A stretch of DNA of 30,653 nt from a virus. The notes below the pieces were generated by a model, which was given only the letters and a program-made list of their open reading frames with translations, had not been told where the DNA came from and did no database searches. The stretch lies in IMG/VR virus record IMGVR_UViG_3300030012_000071, positions 332-30,984 of that record; one strand, given 5' to 3'. A program made the position numbers and the translations under genes. The first letter of the stretch is position 1. Every line of letters starts with the position of its first letter. Below, in pieces: positions 3,201 to 17,370 of this stretch.

Positions 3201-3577
3201 TGGCAAAAAAAAGATTATCAGAAATAGCAAAGGAATATGAAATTCCTTTTGAGCAAGCTAGTGACATAGCATTCAATGTTCTTACAGAAGAATCTATATC
3301 AGGAAAAGGTAGAAACACTTGGATTGACGAAGTAGGTCAAGACTTACTTGATGACAATATACCATTAGCTATTAAAAAAGCTAGAGTATATCGTGGTAGA
3401 GTAAGAAACCTAGCCCCAAATCCTAGATTTTGTTTCGTTTATATTAAAGAAAAGAATGGTTGTGTACCTGTAAAGATACCACCAAAACATAAGAGACATG
3501 TAAGAAGAGGAGCATTTATTCATGTAGAAGAATTGGAGGATGACCATTATGAAATGATTCCCCCGCAAATAGTTTGA
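3200..3577 (+). CDS. Small protein with IF2-N/HTH-like N-terminus
   Basis: A 125-residue protein starting with GTG, whose first base is the last base of the large-terminase stop. Residues 1-25 (RLSEIAKEYEIPFEQA) resemble the short helical domain at the N-terminus of initiation factor IF-2, a winged-helix-like fold that also occurs in DNA-binding proteins. The C-terminal half is a basic, beta-rich region (PPKHKRHVRRGAF). Its place between large terminase and portal suggests a packaging or head-assembly accessory, or a small nucleic-acid-binding protein. The resemblance is by eye and no function is assigned. The AAGGGGGATATT before the start is a plausible ribosome site and supports the GTG. 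Confidence 0.5.
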   Translation: MAKKRLSEIAKEYEIPFEQASDIAFNVLTEESISGKGRNTWIDEVGQDLLDDNIPLAIKKARVYRGRVRNLAPNPRFCFVYIKEKNGCVPVKIPPKHKRHVRRGAFIHVEELEDDHYEMIPPQIV

Positions 3578-3600: not shown

Positions 3601-5685
3601 ATGGCAGATACAGAAGAAATCTCAAAGTCGCTAACATATATATCCAAAGAACCCAATGTAGATCATCTACGACATGCCTACGAGCAAACTGTAAATGAAC
3701 TAGAACCATACTTTGATTTATGTCGTGACTCCTATGATAATAGACGAAACTATTGGAATGGCAAAAGTCGTGACCTTAGAAAACATGGAGCAGATGCTTT
3801 CCCTTGGGAAGGTGCATCTGATATTGAGTCCCATGTCATTGATGAAAGAATACAAAGGATTGTAGCAATGATGATGTCTTCGCTCAACAGAGCGAATGTA
3901 TCAGCATTCCCCGTTGAGGTTTCTGATTTACCTAGAGCAAAGATTGTCTCAGGGTTTTTGAAGTGGATGATTAGTTCTGGTTACATTACTAGGTTTACTG
4001 AGGAGATGGAACTAGGATGTAACTATTTGTTGGAACGAGGAATCTTAGTTACACATGTTGGTTGGCAAAGAGAAGATAGAAAATTTTTACAAGAGTTAGA
4101 TTTAGCTCAGATTGCATTAGTAGAACCAGAAGTTGCAAAAGCAATTGAGGTAGGAGGCAATGAGCAAGATTTAATATTTATGCTTCAACAAACATTTGAA
4201 GGAGTAACAGAAAAGCGAGCAAAGCAAGCAATCAAGGAACTAAGAAGAGATGGTAAAGCAACATTGCCAATCGTAAGACGAGCAGTCAATGCACCTGAAA
4301 TCAAAACACTTGCACCTGACTTTGACTTTTTCTTTCCACCATATGTGACTGACCCACAGAAAGCACCATATTGTTTTTGGAGAAACTTCTACACCCCACA
4401 AGAACTAGAACTAAAAGTTACTACAGATGGTTGGGATGCAGACTTCGTTCAAGAGATGATTGAAAACTACAGAGGAGTTGATGTTCTTGACATTGAGAAA
4501 CAACAAGAAGGTAGACGATCAAATCTAATACAGGATTACGGATACGAAGCTGAAGAATTAATAGAGCTTGTTTATGGATACCAAAGATTAATTGACCCAG
4601 AGGATGGTTCAGAAGGGATTTACTATACAGTATTCCATAAACAATTCAGTGGTAATGAGAATGCTCCAGCATTTGCAATACATGAATTACTTAATGGATA
4701 TGAAGATTATCCTATCGTAGTTACAAAGTATTCGGAGGATTCTAAAAGACTATATGATACAATGACTGTTCCTGATTTATTGAGGGGCATTCAGAATCAA
4801 GTCAAGGTGGAGAGAGATTCTAGGATTGACAGAAATAGTTTAGCGACAGTTCCACCAATCTTACATCCTGTAGGACAAGCTCCTACTGACTATGGGCCGG
4901 GAAGATATATCCCATACAGACGAAAGGGAGACCTTGAGTTTGGCCCTACTCCACCACCACCAACTGGTTCTGTGGAGATAGAGCAAACATTGCTACAACA
5001 AGCAGACAGACTTATGGGTCTTGATGAATCAGCAATGAGTCAGCTTAAGCTACAGTTCTTGGTAAATAAATTTTTAAAACACAGTTCAGAAGTTATTAAA
5101 CTTGCATACAAGTGTTTCCAAAGGTTTGGCCCTGATAGTATATTCTTTAGAGTAACAGGTTCTCCAGACCCACAAAATTTCGGTAAAGGTAATCCAAATG
5201 AAAACTTTGATGTTACCATTTCCTACGATGTTCTTAATACTGATCCTGAAACACAAGAAAAAAAATTAGCTCAGATACAAGCATTAACTCAACTCGATAG
5301 GAATGGTCGCATCAATGTAGATAATTTACTTACAGTAATAGCAAACTCAGTAGACCCAGTGTTAGCTGACCAAATATTACAACCAGTAGAAGCAGCACAA
5401 GACCAAGTAATCAAGCAAGTAACAGATGACTTAGCTAAGATATTTGCTGGTATTGAAATGCCTGCGAGACCTAATGGAGCGCAGATAGCTATGAATGTAA
5501 TTGAGCAATATACATCACAACCTGATGTACAACAAAGATTGGCGGCAGACCAAGCATTCGCAGCAAGAATGCAGAAGTATGCAGGTCAGTATACATTCCA
5601 AATGCAACAAGCACAGAATGCTCAGATTGGTAGAATAGGTACAGAACCTGCCCAAATGGGTGGAATCCAAACTCAAGCACTATGA
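3601..5685 (+). CDS. Portal protein
   Basis: A 694-residue protein with the features of podovirus-type portals: an N-terminal helical region rich in aromatic and charged residues (about 20-60), the segment FPWEGASDIESHVIDE (67-82) seen in portals of many environmental phages, and a long Gln/Ala-rich helical C-terminus (about 590-694) matching a barrel-like extension. The portal is a dodecameric ring at one capsid vertex through which DNA is packaged and ejected, and on which scaffold and terminase dock. Large size and a place right after terminase fit. It overlaps the next gene by four bases (ATGA type). Confidence 0.87.
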   Translation: MADTEEISKSLTYISKEPNVDHLRHAYEQTVNELEPYFDLCRDSYDNRRNYWNGKSRDLRKHGADAFPWEGASDIESHVIDERIQRIVAMMMSSLNRANVSAFPVEVSDLPRAKIVSGFLKWMISSGYITRFTEEMELGCNYLLERGILVTHVGWQREDRKFLQELDLAQIALVEPEVAKAIEVGGNEQDLIFMLQQTFEGVTEKRAKQAIKELRRDGKATLPIVRRAVNAPEIKTLAPDFDFFFPPYVTDPQKAPYCFWRNFYTPQELELKVTTDGWDADFVQEMIENYRGVDVLDIEKQQEGRRSNLIQDYGYEAEELIELVYGYQRLIDPEDGSEGIYYTVFHKQFSGNENAPAFAIHELLNGYEDYPIVVTKYSEDSKRLYDTMTVPDLLRGIQNQVKVERDSRIDRNSLATVPPILHPVGQAPTDYGPGRYIPYRRKGDLEFGPTPPPPTGSVEIEQTLLQQADRLMGLDESAMSQLKLQFLVNKFLKHSSEVIKLAYKCFQRFGPDSIFFRVTGSPDPQNFGKGNPNENFDVTISYDVLNTDPETQEKKLAQIQALTQLDRNGRINVDNLLTVIANSVDPVLADQILQPVEAAQDQVIKQVTDDLAKIFAGIEMPARPNGAQIAMNVIEQYTSQPDVQQRLAADQAFAARMQKYAGQYTFQMQQAQNAQIGRIGTEPAQMGGIQTQAL

Positions 5686-6341
5686 TTGAACTAGCAACAA
5701 TGATGTTGGGTAGTCAGCCAAAAACTGACGATAGGTCTTACGAGGATATATTTGTAGATAAATATCTAGCTTTCAATGAAGGTACAGAAGCTCATAGTAG
5801 CTTAGAAGATAATACTACAACACATCCATATGGCATTAAGTTTATAGAAGAAAAATATAAAAATCTACCATTTAGAGACCAAGCAGTCTTGATGACAGGT
5901 GATCAAATTCGTGCAATAAAAAAACAAATTGGTGAAAAGAATTGGAACTCATTACCACAAGAGCTACAGTTTGCGGCATCTGATACATATTGGAACTCAA
6001 AGAGTTTATTTAAAAATTTTAAAACAAAACTCATAGAAGGTGATGCACAAGGTGCATTTATGGAAACTCTTGACATTGTTACAGGTAGGGATAAAAGAGA
6101 TGGCAAGAAGTATATTTACGGAGGTCATGCCAACAGAAGAGCTAGAAACTATAATGCATGGGCTAGAAAAAATGGAGAACCATTGTTCAAAAGTTATAAG
6201 TTTGAAAAAGCAAAAGATGGGGGTACAATATTAAAATATAATTACACTGGTGGTAAAGAGCCAGAAGTTCTTAGAATTAATAGACCACTTCGTAAAGGAA
6301 CTGAATATAGAGAGTATCCTGTAATAAATTATGAAGATTAA
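5682..6341 (+). CDS. Putative lysozyme-like peptidoglycan hydrolase
   Basis: A 219-residue protein whose pattern suggests the lysozyme superfamily. Residues 31-51 carry E33-G followed after about 13 residues by THPYGI, like the catalytic Glu and the T-x-YGI strand of GH24/GH108 enzymes. Near 146-160 the segment GGHANRRARNYNAW resembles the G-x-x-NRR-A helix that closes T4-type lysozymes. No signal peptide is visible, so it would need a holin or work inside the virion. It lies between portal and scaffold, far from the holin-like cluster at 13.6-16 kb, so a virion-associated cell-wall enzyme is as likely as an endolysin. Catalytic spacing does not match GH24 exactly, so the call is tentative. 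Confidence 0.5.
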   Translation: MIELATMMLGSQPKTDDRSYEDIFVDKYLAFNEGTEAHSSLEDNTTTHPYGIKFIEEKYKNLPFRDQAVLMTGDQIRAIKKQIGEKNWNSLPQELQFAASDTYWNSKSLFKNFKTKLIEGDAQGAFMETLDIVTGRDKRDGKKYIYGGHANRRARNYNAWARKNGEPLFKSYKFEKAKDGGTILKYNYTGGKEPEVLRINRPLRKGTEYREYPVINYED

Positions 6342-10991: not shown

Positions 10992-13390
10992 TGTCATCAG
11001 AAATACTAGGTGGAGCAGAGAACCTTCTTAAAGGTAATCTAGGTGGTGCTTGGGATATAAAGCATGGCTATGCTGATGCTTATACTGATTTAGGGATAGC
11101 TGGTAGATTTGGTGGTTCGGCAGCAGCTTATTCATTGCGAGACATTGGTGCAATGAATGGCTCTGTAGTAAGAGTTCGTAGAGAGCCTCACGATACAGAT
11201 GCTACGATAAATGACGAAGAAAACTTTTCAGCTAATCAAGTTTCTAGTGGTGCATTAGAAGATTGGGTAAATGGTAAACTAGAGACTGCATTACCTTGCA
11301 ATGTGGGTGGTACTAATTTTACTAGTGGTTCTTTTGTTGTAAGTAATTCAAATAATTCAAATGTAAATGGAACTTATACTTTTAATTCATCTAATAGCAG
11401 ATGGGAAAAAAGCTCAATTATTTATTTTCATTTAGATAGTTCTACTTGGACTTTAGTTGTAAGTTCTAGTAATATAGCCGCTACAACAAATGGAGAATAT
11501 CCTTGGACTTCTGTTTACTCTTTAGTATCATCTAATATTTCTTTTGACATACAGTTTAGCTCAATTCTTTTTTCTACAGCCTCAGCTGCTTACAGTCTTC
11601 GTAAGGTTAATAATGGTTATACTGGTAGTGCAGTTCGTATTCGTAGAGGCTCAGATGACATTGAGGTAAATGTAGCTTTTGATTCAGAAGATAAAGTAAG
11701 TGCTAGCTCTTCAATCCTAAATACAACTGAAGTAGGTGGAGAAAGTGGACGGACAACTGACACTACCCTTGGAGGTTTTTTAAATGAAGTTCTAACAGTA
11801 GGTGTAGCCGTAGAAGGAGGATCTTCAGCTTCAGATAGACCAGACTCTTTTACTAATGCTACTAACTCTAGTTTTACTGCTACTGTAACAGATGCAGCTG
11901 GAGGATATTTTCCTTACCTAAGTGATCTTAACGATGTTATTGTTGTATCCTTTGATATTGTTCTTACTGGTGGTGCAAGTCCATCTTTATGCACATCTGA
12001 TGGAGTAAACACAACTCAAAATAGGTCAAATAGTATAACAATAAATTCCTCTGGTAGTTATACAAAAACACTTACTTGTGACCAAAATACTGGAACTGCA
12101 ACACATATAAGATTTGCAGATAGTGACGATGGAACTTTTGCTGTAACTAATTTCAGAGTAGTATCTCATACACATTCAGCTTTTGTTCACACTTGGTACG
12201 ACCAAGCTGGTTTTTTAAACAATGCAGTTCAAGAAACTGCTGCTAACCAACCAAAGATTGCATCAAGTGGAACACTACTAAGCTCATTGGATTATTCAGA
12301 TGGTGGTAAATTCCTTCAGCTTAGTTCAACTGTTTCAGTCGGAGAAGATGTAAGTTTATTTGGTGTAGTTACTAAATCAACTGGAACTGATATTTTATTT
12401 GATGCAAGAACTGGGGCTGGTGCTGGATTTAGAGTATTTGAACAAAGTAGTGTTCAAAAGTTCAATTACGATGCTACCACAGTATCATCTTCAGTTAATC
12501 CAAGTGCTGGTAATAATTTTTTAATTACAGCTATACAAGATGGTTCTAATGCAAAAATAGGAGTCAATGCAAATACTTTTGATACAGCGGCTGAGACTAC
12601 TGTAGAATCAGTGACTCCAACTCCAGTTATTGGAGGTAAGTCATTTACTACAGTTGGTGCAGATAATTGGGAAGGTACAATTTCTGAAATAATATATTAC
12701 ACTTCAGACCAAACAGACAATCGCTTCAGGATTGAGTCCAACATCAATAACTATTATGGTTTATATACTTTTCAAGGAGATGGTTTTGTTGAAACTTTGT
12801 ACGATCAAAGTGGTAATGGCAATGATGTATCCCAAACAACTGCTGGAAGCCAACCAAAAATTGTAGATAGTGGTTCTCAAGTAAAAGTAGATGGCATTCC
12901 TTCAATAAAATTTGACGGGACTGATGACTTTTTAGAAAGAGCAACTTACACTCAAGGTGATTTATCTCAACCGAATACTGCATTTGCTGTAGCTAAATTA
13001 AGGGTATATGTAGATGATAATCAAAAAATATTTGATGGTCACAATAATCCCGGGAGAAATATGATTCAATTAAATACAGTTGGAAACGGACAGTTTGCAG
13101 CTTTTGCTGGTGTAGTACAAGCGACTGGAGAGGATGCAGATGCTGACCAACACTTATTTGAATCAAGATTTAATGGATCTTCATCAAGATTTATTATTGA
13201 TGGGGTAATTAAAAATACAAACAGTCCCGGCACACAATCTATGGTGGGCATAAATATAGGTGCAAATCACGATAGTGGTACAAACTTTTGGGATGGTGAC
13301 ATTCAAGAAATCATTATCTATAACTCTGATTTATTTGATGACAGAGCCGATATAGAAAATGATATAAACAATTATTATACAATTTATTAA
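10991..13390 (+). CDS. Structural protein with duplicated lectin-like (concanavalin A-type) domains
   Basis: A 799-residue protein with two kinds of duplicated module. Near residues 42 and 194 start related segments (AAYSLR... then G-S-(A/V)VR(I/V)RR). From about 397 to 593 and 598 to 799 lie two related domains. Each opens with a W/L-YDQ motif (TWYDQAG, TLYDQSGNGN), continues with (N/S)QPKI, and closes with an E-I-I-(Y/I)-Y-x-SD segment and an INNYY helix. That pattern is typical of concanavalin A-like lectin/LamG folds in phage receptor-binding or decoration proteins. It probably binds host surface glycans. A fibre or capsid-surface adhesin are both possible. Confidence 0.65.
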   Translation: MSSEILGGAENLLKGNLGGAWDIKHGYADAYTDLGIAGRFGGSAAAYSLRDIGAMNGSVVRVRREPHDTDATINDEENFSANQVSSGALEDWVNGKLETALPCNVGGTNFTSGSFVVSNSNNSNVNGTYTFNSSNSRWEKSSIIYFHLDSSTWTLVVSSSNIAATTNGEYPWTSVYSLVSSNISFDIQFSSILFSTASAAYSLRKVNNGYTGSAVRIRRGSDDIEVNVAFDSEDKVSASSSILNTTEVGGESGRTTDTTLGGFLNEVLTVGVAVEGGSSASDRPDSFTNATNSSFTATVTDAAGGYFPYLSDLNDVIVVSFDIVLTGGASPSLCTSDGVNTTQNRSNSITINSSGSYTKTLTCDQNTGTATHIRFADSDDGTFAVTNFRVVSHTHSAFVHTWYDQAGFLNNAVQETAANQPKIASSGTLLSSLDYSDGGKFLQLSSTVSVGEDVSLFGVVTKSTGTDILFDARTGAGAGFRVFEQSSVQKFNYDATTVSSSVNPSAGNNFLITAIQDGSNAKIGVNANTFDTAAETTVESVTPTPVIGGKSFTTVGADNWEGTISEIIYYTSDQTDNRFRIESNINNYYGLYTFQGDGFVETLYDQSGNGNDVSQTTAGSQPKIVDSGSQVKVDGIPSIKFDGTDDFLERATYTQGDLSQPNTAFAVAKLRVYVDDNQKIFDGHNNPGRNMIQLNTVGNGQFAAFAGVVQATGEDADADQHLFESRFNGSSSRFIIDGVIKNTNSPGTQSMVGINIGANHDSGTNFWDGDIQEIIIYNSDLFDDRADIENDINNYYTIY

Positions 13391-14284: not shown

Positions 14285-15181
14285 ATGGATAAGAAAGAAG
14301 CAAAGAAACTCCTTGTAGAGCATTCTAAGGCTCTTAATACACTTCTAAATAATGAAGGTGTATCAGAGACTAATGTAGATGCTGAAGGCACTCTTGGTTC
14401 TATTGAAGAAAGAGAAGAGCATTTGTCTTTTATACAGAAGATGATTAAGAAAGCTCAACAAGTGCCTGTAGTAGAAACCTTTTCTAATTTAGGAGTAGCA
14501 GGAAGTGTGGCAGTAACATCTGCGGCAGTTACTCAGACAGAGATTGCAAAGGATGTAACTGAGACTTTTGTAGCTGAGGTAGCTAATGATGTTGTAGAAA
14601 GACGAGTAGAAGTACCTCAGTTTGTAGATAACTTTGTTGACTTTGATAATATCAACACATGGGGTGAGATAGTTATCGCTAGAAAATTTATTGAGGCACA
14701 AAGTGTTGCCGCTAATGTTTCTTCTGAAATTCAGAGCAAGATTGAGAGTGGCGAGATTCAGGTTTCCGAACCACAACAGACTTCTCAATCAACTGGTGAG
14801 ACTTCGGACACCACACCTGAATCCTCTGCTTCTTCCAATAGTTCTTCCTCCGAAAAGTCCTCTCGAACTGATCAACCCTCACAAACTGAACAATCGTCAG
14901 AGTCACAACAAAAAGAGCAAGAATCAAAAGAAGATAGTTCATCAAAGGAGTCTAAAGATAGCGAGCAAGAAAAAGGTAAGTCAGATAAGCAAGAGCAGCC
15001 CCAAGAACAAAAAGCTGAAGAACAGAAAGAGTCTCAAGAAAAATCATCCTCTGAAACTAGTACACAGTCAGAAGAAGTCAAGTCAGAACCTACCCAACAA
15101 CAAACAACAACAGAGATACCAAAGGTAGAAACACCTATAGATTTTGGTGGAAGTCTAAGACAAGTATCTCCAACTAATTAA
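14285..15181 (+). CDS. Low-complexity Ser/Gln/Glu/Lys-rich protein
   Basis: A 298-residue protein with three zones: a charged N-terminus (1-55), a middle with one weakly hydrophobic stretch (about 62-82, VETFSNLGVAGSVAVTSAAV in outline) and helical acidic segments to about 155, then about 120 residues of Ser/Gln/Glu/Lys/Thr low complexity ending in a more ordered tail (DFGGSLRQVSPTN). Biased, probably disordered tails of this kind occur in cell-surface or periplasmic spacers, and it lies in the lysis-like cluster. A spanin-like or periplasm-spanning role is conceivable but unproven. It starts right after the holin stop. Confidence 0.5.
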   Translation: MDKKEAKKLLVEHSKALNTLLNNEGVSETNVDAEGTLGSIEEREEHLSFIQKMIKKAQQVPVVETFSNLGVAGSVAVTSAAVTQTEIAKDVTETFVAEVANDVVERRVEVPQFVDNFVDFDNINTWGEIVIARKFIEAQSVAANVSSEIQSKIESGEIQVSEPQQTSQSTGETSDTTPESSASSNSSSSEKSSRTDQPSQTEQSSESQQKEQESKEDSSSKESKDSEQEKGKSDKQEQPQEQKAEEQKESQEKSSSETSTQSEEVKSEPTQQQTTTEIPKVETPIDFGGSLRQVSPTN

Positions 15182-15183
15182 TT

Positions 15184-15351
15184 ATGGAATTTTTTAAATA
15201 CATCTTTAGCAACTACTCAGGAGACCTTAGTAAGATGCTCCTTGCATATATTGGTATAATATCAATAGTGCTTATCTTTTTTCCTTTTAAGAAAATTGTG
15301 GCATTTATAAAAGAATTATTAGCAATCATAGGATCGGTGTTTAAAAAATAA
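15184..15351 (+). CDS. 55-residue membrane protein, holin-like
   Basis: This short frame starts at the ATG at 15184 and ends in TAA sharing one base with the next ATG. It has a short N-terminus (MEFFKYIFSNYSGDLSK), one strong hydrophobic stretch (about 18-33, MLLAYIGIISIVLIFF) and an amphipathic C-terminal helix (KKIVAFIKELLAIIGSVFKK). Size and shape fit a small pinholin or holin partner. No known family is assigned. Confidence 0.55.
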   Translation: MEFFKYIFSNYSGDLSKMLLAYIGIISIVLIFFPFKKIVAFIKELLAIIGSVFKK

Positions 15352-15635
15352 TGGTAGGAGATATATTAAATTTTGTAGAACAAATAGGAATCCCAATTAC
15401 AAGTGCATTGGCAGTTGGTTGGTTTCTTTTCATTATTCTTAAGTTCATACTACAACAAGTATCGGATCGCATTGGTGGATTATCTAGTTCTTTGATTTCA
15501 TTAGAAAACAAAGTGGATAACATGAATAATGATATAATTAAAATAGATGCACACTTCTCTTGTGCATTTAACTGCGAGCCAAATCTAGATAGGATGGCGG
15601 CAAGTGAAGGCAAGGAGGATTGTAGAGACGACTAA
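15351..15635 (+). CDS. Small membrane protein, BhlA/UviB-like holin candidate
   Basis: A 94-residue protein with one N-terminal hydrophobic span (about 11-34, IGIPITSALAVGWFLFIILKF) followed by a heptad-rich coiled coil (about 38-66, LSSSLISLENKVDNMNNDI) and a C-terminal charged tail with three Cys. This N-terminal anchor plus coiled coil arrangement is that of BhlA/UviB-type holins and other small phage membrane proteins. It is coupled on both sides by one-base stop/start overlaps. Confidence 0.5.
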   Translation: MVGDILNFVEQIGIPITSALAVGWFLFIILKFILQQVSDRIGGLSSSLISLENKVDNMNNDIIKIDAHFSCAFNCEPNLDRMAASEGKEDCRDD

Positions 15636-15916
15636 TGAGTGGTTACGAATTTCAACATTGGGCAGATATGATAGCCAAGTTTGGCTTTTCATTAATTGCA
15701 CTTATAGGTCTTGGTTTTTTTGTGTGGCACATATGGAAGTGGGTGACCAATACAGTCAATCCAGCTTTGGATGATTGTGGTAGCTCACTAGGAAAGCTTA
15801 AGAAACAAATACAAGCATTAGACAACGACATGATTCGCCTTAACATGAAGTTAAAAATATTAATACAAGAAAGGCATATAATAGATAAAAATAAACAAGA
15901 TGAGTCACGAACTTGA
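15635..15916 (+). CDS. Small membrane protein, paralogue-like to the preceding holin candidate
   Basis: A 93-residue protein with the same plan as the one before: a span at about 17-37 (FSLIALIGLGFFVWHIWKW), then a coiled coil (about 50-80, LGKLKKQIQALDNDMIRLNMKLKI) and a basic tail. The coiled coil could zip with the neighbouring protein to give a hetero-oligomer, as holin/antiholin pairs do. The end overlaps the next gene by 17 bases. Confidence 0.5.
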   Translation: MSGYEFQHWADMIAKFGFSLIALIGLGFFVWHIWKWVTNTVNPALDDCGSSLGKLKKQIQALDNDMIRLNMKLKILIQERHIIDKNKQDESRT

Positions 15917-16280
15917 ATACCCTGAATTAGTAGTAGAACCTGATTATTATTGGGATGATACTATATCAATTAGCAATTTTAATTACTTTAATGTACCATC
16001 TATACCACAATGGGCATATAGCGAATATGATGGTTTATACTACGAAGGAGTCCAATACAGTTGGGACGAAGTAGATTATAGACTTACAATAGATTATAAT
16101 AGTGTACCAGAACCTGCGGATGCAGGATTATTAGTGAGTATTGCACTAGGTGGATTTATTTTATATAAAATATTTATGAAAAAAGGAACAACACAAATGA
16201 AATGTAGTATATGTAAGACTAAGGATTCTATCATTAGTTTTATTAAATCAATATATAACAAACTAACAGGAGGAAAATAA
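15900..16280 (+). CDS. Membrane protein with PEP-CTERM-like tripartite signal
   Basis: A 126-residue protein. The first 65 residues are acidic and Tyr/Trp-rich with no signal peptide. Residues 69-95 hold VPEP, then a hydrophobic helix (AGLLVSIALGGFILYKIF) and a basic end (KK), the three parts of a PEP-CTERM exosortase sorting signal. In canonical proteins that signal is the C-terminus and a signal peptide precedes it. Here 31 more residues follow, including a Cys pair (CSIC) and an amphipathic helix. An internal ATG at residue 100 has AAGGA nine bases upstream and may start a separate 27-residue product. It is the last of the membrane cluster. The match may be coincidental. Confidence 0.55.
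   Translation: MSHELEYPELVVEPDYYWDDTISISNFNYFNVPSIPQWAYSEYDGLYYEGVQYSWDEVDYRLTIDYNSVPEPADAGLLVSIALGGFILYKIFMKKGTTQMKCSICKTKDSIISFIKSIYNKLTGGK
16197..16280 (+). CDS. Possible internal-start 27-residue peptide
   Basis: In the same frame as the PEP-CTERM-like gene, an ATG at 16197 is preceded by AAGGA (16183-16187) at a good distance of nine bases and would give a 27-residue peptide: a Cys pair (CSIC) near the start, then an amphipathic basic helix (IISFIKSIYNKL). It shares the stop with the longer form. If used, the cell would make two products from one gene, as dual-start holin genes do. It is only a candidate. Confidence 0.25.
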   Translation: MKCSICKTKDSIISFIKSIYNKLTGGK

Positions 16281-16281
16281 T

Positions 16282-16362
16282 ATGCCAAGAGGAAAAGGAA
16301 CATATGGAAGTAAAGTAGGTAGACCACCTAAGAAAAAGACTATGAAGAGGGGTAAAAAATAA
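16282..16362 (+). CDS. 26-residue basic peptide with AT-hook-like core
   Basis: A tiny gene with a strong ribosome site (AGGAGG about ten bases upstream) opening the run of eight basic micro-genes. The peptide is MPRGKGTYGSKVGRPPKKKT plus a lysine-rich end. GRPPKKK resembles an AT-hook, which grips the minor groove of AT-rich DNA, suiting this AT-rich genome. I recall very similar micro-proteins in other environmental phages, annotated only as hypothetical. The stop overlaps the next start by one base (TAATG). Confidence 0.6.
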   Translation: MPRGKGTYGSKVGRPPKKKTMKRGKK

Positions 16363-16475
16363 TGCCATTCAGCAAATATAGTCCAAAGCAAAAGAAATTA
16401 GCCCAAGTAGCAGCACCTCGTAATAAAATTACTGGTGCTGACTTCAAGGCTTTGAAGCGAAGAAAGGTTAAATAA
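16362..16475 (+). CDS. 37-residue basic peptide
   Basis: The second micro-gene, starting and ending in TAATG overlaps. The sequence has an N-terminal KYSPKQKKLAQVAAP segment and a C-terminal FKALKRRKVK. The KITGADFKAL segment is of a type that recurs in small phage proteins. It is strongly basic, with no cysteine. It probably binds DNA, RNA or acidic virion surfaces. No proven function. Confidence 0.55.
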   Translation: MPFSKYSPKQKKLAQVAAPRNKITGADFKALKRRKVK

Positions 16476-16588
16476 TGCACAGAAAACTTATATCAGTAGC
16501 TAAAAAACTAGACAAAGCAAGTAAAGCCCATGCTGGTCAATCTAAGACATTGAAGAGAATGGCTAAGAAAAAAGGAGGATGCAAGTAA
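16475..16588 (+). CDS. 37-residue basic peptide with C-terminal cysteine
   Basis: The third micro-gene, coupled by TAATG on both sides. It is lysine-rich and helical (KLISVAKKLDKASKAHAGQS, then KTLKRMAKKK) with one Cys next to the end (GGCK). Its plan resembles short helical DNA-binding or virion-internal peptides. No family is assigned. Confidence 0.55.
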   Translation: MHRKLISVAKKLDKASKAHAGQSKTLKRMAKKKGGCK

Positions 16589-16752
16589 TGGGTAAACTAT
16601 GCGCTAGAGGTAAAGCAGCCGCTAAAAGAAAGTATGATGTATATCCATCAGCTTATGCTAATAGCTATGCAGTAAGAGTATGTAAAGGTCAAGTTAAAGG
16701 GCCAGATGGCAAGAAACGAACTGCTAGTGGTTATAAGAGAAAGAAGGTATGA
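16588..16752 (+). CDS. 54-residue Cys/Lys-rich protein (marine phage micro-gene family)
   Basis: The fourth micro-gene. It has KLCARGKAAAKRKYDVYPSA at its start, then SYAVRVCKG, and a basic tail (GYKRKKV). The paired cysteines lie about 28 residues apart. The LCARGKAAAKRKF/YDVYPSAYAN pattern is one I recognise from small conserved proteins in many phages (DUF-type, no known role). A structured, DNA- or capsid-binding micro-protein is likely. Its TGA is in an ATGA overlap with the next start. Confidence 0.6.
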   Translation: MGKLCARGKAAAKRKYDVYPSAYANSYAVRVCKGQVKGPDGKKRTASGYKRKKV

Positions 16753-16988
16753 GTCTTAGAAGATGGCATCAAGAGAAGTGGGTAGATGTAAAGACCGGGA
16801 AACCTTGTGGCAGAAAGTCTGCTAAAGGAAGTAAGCGAGCCTATCCAGCTTGTAGACCATCTAAAAGAGTTTCATCAAAGACACCGAAAACTGCATCAGA
16901 GATGTCTTCATCTGAGAAAGCAAAATTTAAAAGAACCAAAACAAGTAGTAAGAGAATCCCTTACTCACATAAAAGAAAAAAAGCATGA
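16749..16988 (+). CDS. 79-residue basic protein (DUF5872-like)
   Basis: The fifth micro-gene. The front segment WHQEKWVDVKTGKPCGRKSA followed by YPACRPSKRV holds a pair of cysteines about 15 residues apart, a pattern seen in small environmental phage proteins. The rest is Lys/Ser/Thr-rich (TKTSSKRIPYSHKRKKA). Highly basic and possibly metal- or disulfide-stabilised. Coupled by ATGA overlaps on both sides. Function unknown, though nucleic-acid binding is the simplest reading. Confidence 0.6.
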   Translation: MSLRRWHQEKWVDVKTGKPCGRKSAKGSKRAYPACRPSKRVSSKTPKTASEMSSSEKAKFKRTKTSSKRIPYSHKRKKA

Positions 16989-17137
16989 ACAAAGGAATGC
17001 CAGTAGAGACTGCAACAAATAAAAAAGGCAAGAAACCTGTAACGGGTCGGATTGGCTACAAGGAAAGTGAATACAAGCCCATGGGAATAGTTATTAAGGA
17101 TTACAATTCAAATGATTACAAAAGAAAACCTATATGA
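16985..17137 (+). CDS. 50-residue basic hypothetical protein
   Basis: The sixth micro-gene, between ATGA overlaps at both ends. The sequence is MNKGMPVETATNKKGKKPVT, then a less charged central portion (YKESEYKPMGIVIKDYNS) and a short basic end (YKRKP). It is less basic than its neighbours and looks partly beta. I do not recognise it. The dense coupling is the main evidence that it is a real gene. Confidence 0.5.
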   Translation: MNKGMPVETATNKKGKKPVTGRIGYKESEYKPMGIVIKDYNSNDYKRKPI

Positions 17138-17370
17138 GAAAAGAACATAAGTCAAAGAAAGGTGGACTAACTGCCGCGGGTAGAGCTTACTTCAAAAGAA
17201 AGACTGGTGCTAATCTAAAGCCACCAGTTACTGAGTCTAAGCCTACTGGCAAGAGAAAGGCTCGTAAGAAATCTTTTTGTGCTAGAATGTCAGGAGTAAA
17301 AGGGCCAATGAAGGATTCAAAAGGAAGACCTACGAGAAAAGCATTAGCCCTTCGTAGATGGAAATGTTAA
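17134..17370 (+). CDS. 78-residue basic protein (DUF6321-like)
   Basis: The last micro-gene. It opens with GGLTAAGRAYFKRKTGANLK, continues PPVTESKPTGKRKARKKS and closes with SFCARMSGVKGPMKDSKGR then ALALRRWKC. This pattern is recognised from many environmental phages as a small conserved domain of unknown function. Two Cys lie in the second half. It ends right before the nozzle-like gene with no gap. Confidence 0.6.
   Translation: MRKEHKSKKGGLTAAGRAYFKRKTGANLKPPVTESKPTGKRKARKKSFCARMSGVKGPMKDSKGRPTRKALALRRWKC

Follow-up and report, generated by a model that had tools for sequence, protein, structure and literature searches.

Phages of Gram-positive bacteria carry LPXTG/sortase proteins, in which a phage protein is addressed to the C-terminal envelope sorting machinery of the host. 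The locus described here would be comparable in this respect, but signal, enzyme and envelope are different, and the protein is encoded within a three-gene membrane cassette in a late region of lytic type. Its closest counterpart is the PEP-CTERM/exosortase system (EpsH; PF07589, TIGR02595; PF09721), with which it shares a C-terminal [VI]PEP motif, a hydrophobic helix and a basic end, a motif predicted to be periplasmic, and diverse cargo poor in basic residues. Haft et al. (2006) placed PEP at the interface between periplasm and membrane, beside the EpsH active site, and about 97% of PEP-CTERM proteins have a signal peptide (PMC1569441). Exosortases are said, in recent work (PMC12188702), to traffic PEP-CTERM proteins to the cell exterior; the purpose of this sorting is still poorly known. 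The phage genes differ from the host system in that they come from lytic-looking phages, occupy a single slot where hosts have many genes, include a family without signal peptide, and show motif variants. Choice-of-anchor proteins (NF041539, choice_anch_R) are similar in that an exported domain is followed by an exchangeable anchor. No report of phage-borne PEP-CTERM/exosortase clients was found in PMC full text, which does not include subscription papers, and the initial annotation of this DNA appears right in calling such a signal unusual for a phage. The sorting system is known, whereas its carriage by phages in a co-inherited cassette appears to be new.

The window, i.e. the whole stretch of DNA analyzed (30,653 nucleotides), forms part of an IMG/VR virus record 30,984 bases long, and also carries terminase, major head protein (PHROG_1328) and tail genes. 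The nearest named relative is phage C75C1 (OQ984151), whose major head protein is 64% identical; it has the head and small-gene module seen in the window, but no EQ-tm55-PEP cassette (described below) was found in it. On the forward strand, the ORF at 15900–16280, hereafter the PEP gene, encodes a 126-aa protein with an acidic, Tyr-rich N-terminal domain, the VPEP motif (V69-P70-E71-P72, codons at 16104–16115), a C-terminal membrane helix with lysines K90, K94 and K95 (16119–16184), and a fused tail. The helix was recognized in a hydropathy test and covers residues 72–94 in the AF2 model of the window protein; the pTM of the family A model (see below) is 0.27. Read from the sequence, residues 1–68 include 14 acidic residues and a single Arg, there is no signal peptide, and approximately 30 residues lie beyond the lysines. 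The initial annotation had described VPEP, helix and basic end in this order, with no signal peptide and with extra residues past the basic part, and all of this was borne out.

A direct search with the window PEP protein gave no relatives in viral contigs or GenBank phages. Relatives were reached through phages carrying a related head protein or the 78-aa DUF6321 neighbour, by comparing the same region, and a profile-based scan yielded 53 loci; family A, to which the window protein belongs, comprises 42 distinct proteins from marine phages. Loss of VPEP in close homologues, which the initial annotation had named as evidence against a sorting signal, was not observed: Pro-Glu at the helix mouth is conserved in all 42 homologues, despite a diverged helix, and the third Pro of the motif is retained in 37 of them. 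Column entropy in the alignment is 0.36 at residues 69–72, versus 1.83 in the helix. Where the third position varies, it gives PEF, PEA, PES or PEQ (PEM or PEL in family B, described below). Thirty-seven of the 42 proteins end 19–29 residues past xPEx, like PEP-CTERM proteins; in the window and in L193–L196, 44–54 residues follow, and the extreme C-terminal location is not seen there. A basic C-terminal flank with at least two K/R is present throughout the family. Typical ends are VPEPSTYALLAGFAVLIFTMIKRRNK (L233), VPEPSFYGLVLGFSLLLLTMIKRRK (L230), VPEPAFVGLFMGLCLLALTLIKRK (L214) and VPEPADAGFIGAVLVGIFVAFCYFKNKGK (L203). In the N-terminal domains, acidic residues average 13 and basic residues 2; these domains include the invariant residues P33, G45, Y53, W55, E57, Y60 and R61, and lack a signal peptide in every case. 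Purifying selection is seen, with dN at about one tenth to one fifth of dS in the sampled pairs.

The window copy has no match to PF07589 or TIGR02595, and aligns to NF033554 with E=0.084 over the tail end of the model only. Being weak in all models, this single sequence might have matched by chance, and the doubt expressed in the initial annotation was justified. At the family level, the proposed PEP-CTERM-like sorting signal is supported. L233 scores above the curated cut-offs of both PF07589 (21.8 versus 20.7 bits) and TIGR02595 (21.4 versus 16); the window copy is a divergent family member. At E≤0.1, 15/42 family A proteins match PF07589 and 12/42 match TIGR02595, and 11 of the 12 NCBIfam families with matches represent PEP-CTERM or exosortase-dependent models; most members, that of the window included, lie below the curated cut-offs. 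A tail profile derived exclusively from five PEP-CTERM tails in one Opitutae genome was run against 6665 distinct ORFs, taken from both strands of the window and of 241 phage loci. Its first 13 matches were family A members, led by L233 (E=1e-9), indicating a likeness to real PEP-CTERM tails; the window copy was not among the best 60 matches listed. Among ORFs with a C-terminal helix in the hydropathy test, xPEx stands at the helix mouth in 65 of 67 distinct cassette ORFs and in 0 of 99 others from the same phages. The chance tests (models, profile, helix mouth, dN/dS) use overlapping sequences and are partly dependent, and they all point in the same direction. A chance match for the VPEP tail, which had been offered as one possibility, is ruled out by the motif conservation, the Opitutae profile and the helix-mouth test. 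Since family A lacks a signal peptide and the window copy is sub-threshold, we describe the protein as working like a PEP-CTERM protein rather than filing it as a standard member.

In other phages, the same slot is occupied by an unrelated protein of 205–206 aa (family B; 25 distinct sequences), with a signal-like N-terminal helix followed by a cleavage-like site AW[SG], a predicted beta-sandwich, IPE[PML], a helix and a basic end. The family B model has a mean pLDDT of 62, and its matches by fold, to CBM35-like and further jelly rolls, are weak (E about 0.01). One of the 25 sequences matches NF041539 weakly (E=0.0016), and other members that were scanned singly do not; the likeness to choice-of-anchor proteins is thus limited to this single weak match, and the family A cargo is unrelated to them. 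When family A protein L022 is compared to family B protein L015, only a 25-residue tail aligns, from IPE to the basic residue, with 64% identity. Judged from these alignments, a tail swapped between unrelated cargoes, with its boundary at the motif, is how a sorting module is expected to look. The tail could alternatively be an inner-membrane anchor only, with Pro-Glu serving in folding or in binding to EQ or tm55 and with no exosortase involved. Such a function would agree with the absence of a signal peptide in family A, the many sub-threshold scores, the five members with residues past the basic end and the strict coupling to tm55. It leaves unexplained why xPEx is missing at the helix mouth of the 99 other C-terminal-helix ORFs, why L233 passes both curated models and the Opitutae profile ranks the family first, and why an unrelated, exported family shares only the tail from IPE onward; we consider it fairly unlikely. 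Separately, the 198-aa viral protein BFVD A0A516MBN4 shows structural likeness to the family B model (E=1.3e-7, 19% identity), and could represent a further phage protein of this predicted design.

The PEP gene is preceded by two further cassette genes on the same strand. EQ (14285–15181) has a basic helical N-terminus, a weak membrane segment and a long acidic, low-complexity C-terminal part, while tm55 (15184–15351) encodes a 55-aa single-helix protein with a basic amphipathic C-terminus. None of the three has a functional Pfam or PHROG match. In 100 comparable loci, defined as those that cover the region according to two neighbouring marker genes, the three genes are all present in 72 and all absent in 28, and the PEP gene was never seen alone; since numerous loci in this set are related, or are records that overlap on one contig, fewer independent events are represented than the 72/28 split suggests. 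The genes are also coupled: in all 53 family A loci outside the window, the PEP start lies in an ATGA overlap with the tm55 stop, and in all 26 family B loci it lies 24 bases before that stop. In the window phage, tm55 and PEP are separated by an inserted tandem pair of PHROG_18771 membrane proteins (15351–15916, forward strand); in L187, L189, L193, L195 and L196, PHROG_18771 proteins are found 3' of PEP. The cassette mostly follows a gene for a 135-aa membrane protein, precedes it in L102 and L106, and lies 3' of the DUF6321 gene in three loci (L135, L233 and L240); it changes place as a unit.

The cassette usually lies beside late-region genes for small and multi-helix membrane proteins, its three products all appear to be membrane-bound, and no other spanin was recognized. 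These features would suit a lysis set in which PEP pairs, in spanin-like fashion, with EQ or tm55 as the outer-envelope component, exosortase being optional. We regard this as unlikely, given that the whole cassette is missing from related phages (28 loci), that neither its members nor the 135-aa neighbour have a Pfam or PHROG lysis match, and that it also occurs away from that neighbour in L135, L233 and L240. A holin assignment for the 135-aa protein was rejected for want of family support; it belongs to PHROG_38283, a family without an assigned function. A phage lysozyme (PF00959, E=4.9e-8) is encoded 5' of the head genes in sister phage L164 (5320–6042), and its counterpart in the window (5682–6341) has no lysozyme match. 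In the cassette-less L056 (14334–15083) and L058 (12567–13385), a protein judged by eye to be glycosyltransferase-like is encoded between a small membrane protein and the 135-aa PHROG_38283 protein. Between PEP and the tail gene, the window encodes very small, strongly basic proteins of 26–79 aa (16283–17370). The last of these is the DUF6321 protein (17134–17370, E=1.5e-29), which is very well conserved in relatives and has 596 confirmed relatives in viral contigs.

A head-protein scan of 84,980 species genomes identified just two bacterial bins with a sister phage. One is an Opitutae MAG, which carries two exosortases and no fewer than 14 PEP-CTERM proteins; the other is a Rickettsiales MAG that has no exosortase and no PEP-CTERM protein. 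In the order of the Opitutae MAG, exosortase is present in 264/344 genomes, and head-protein matches at E≤1e-10 occur in 9/372 genomes, only one of them (G001) close; the Rickettsiales order gave matches in 1/32 genomes. The sister-phage contigs in both bins stop short of the cassette region, and no EQ-tm55-PEP cassette was present on the contigs fetched for head-protein matches. Family B was likewise absent from the 344 genomes, in a search run without a positive control. The G+C content of the cassette phages is 32–38%, versus about 50% for the Opitutae MAG loci. The best CRISPR spacer match in this order (1395 spacers from 89 arrays, some counted twice because loci overlap) covers 18 of 34 bases, which is chance level. 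A phmmer search of forward ORFs with one Opitutae exosortase gave no match to a phage-encoded enzyme. The two sister phages, L163 and L164, are of the same group and come from the Rickettsiales and Opitutae bins, so that at least one of the bins is probably wrong; unreliable phage binning, contigs that end before the cassette, the G+C gap and the lack of a spacer match all argue against taking the Opitutae MAG as the host.

The explanation that we favour, and consider probable on the basis of these sequence comparisons, is that the cassette places cargo into the host envelope by means of a PEP-CTERM signal, probably read by a host exosortase. The PEP protein, third gene product of a membrane-protein cassette, would consist of a cargo domain and a PEP-CTERM sorting tail. 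The cargo, either the acidic N-terminal domain of family A or the signal-peptide beta-sandwich of family B, would lie on the periplasmic side, held in place by the C-terminal helix, whose basic end would face the cytoplasm, as predicted by the positive-inside rule. With this N-out topology, Pro-Glu would be at the periplasmic surface of the inner membrane, close to the residues proposed to be catalytic in exosortase. The host enzyme would then most likely recognize and cut the tail, and the cargo could enter the PEP-CTERM envelope pathway of the host during infection, most likely altering the surface of the infected cell, for instance against further phage or for release. Counted against this explanation are the missing signal peptide in family A, the sub-threshold scores, the long tails in five members and the motif variants, as well as the G+C gap, the lack of a spacer match and a Rickettsiales bin without exosortase. 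More broadly, we judge the balance to be even, from the same comparisons, on whether this is a mobile cassette with exchangeable, exosortase-routed cargoes that are the first viral clients of the system, some of them periplasmic without a signal peptide.

The initial annotation had suggested that the protein might mimic or jam the sorting system of the host. The sharing of one tail by two unrelated cargoes is better explained by cargo delivery. In its explicit form, the jamming proposal has an abundant, small, PEP-CTERM-tailed phage protein acting as a decoy that ties up exosortase and keeps host surface proteins from being sorted, in keeping with the small size, conserved tail and simple family A cargo; the fused tail of the window copy could also hinder release. 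A decoy needs no cargo, yet the family A N-terminal domain has invariant residues and family B a conserved beta-sandwich, and the partnership of three genes would be left unaccounted for. We therefore find it very unlikely. If cargo delivery is correct, phage-borne clients would indicate which host envelope process is important in infection, and sorting-tail piracy would join the means by which phages remodel a Gram-negative-type envelope. The proteins would also provide a small natural substrate for exosortase tests and a sequence clue to the hosts of marine phages.

The extra C-terminal tail of the window protein (16188–16280, forward strand; MKCSICKTKDSIISFIKSIYNKLTGGK) is an amphipathic helix with a CxxC motif. 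Residues well past the basic end, 20–30 in number, occur only in the window and in L193–L196 (5/42), and the window copy may be anchored rather than cut. An internal start had also been proposed, and an ATG at 16197 is indeed preceded by AAGGA nine bases 5', which could yield a 27-aa product (MKCSICK..., 16197–16280, forward strand). The equivalent start codon is absent from L193, L194 and L196, the relatives inspected, so that a second product would be at most specific to the window. The window tail resembles stand-alone proteins of 31–32 aa (e.g. MKCCICKTKD...) in L052, L084, L086 and L101, phages that carry no EQ-tm55-PEP cassette; its simplest reading, from this resemblance, is a fused small gene. 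The stand-alone CxxC peptides (MKC.ICKTKD...) are cationic and amphipathic, and are encoded at 11103–11201 in L052 and 3467–3565 in L084, with further copies at 3531–3629 in L086 and 5810–5905 in L101.
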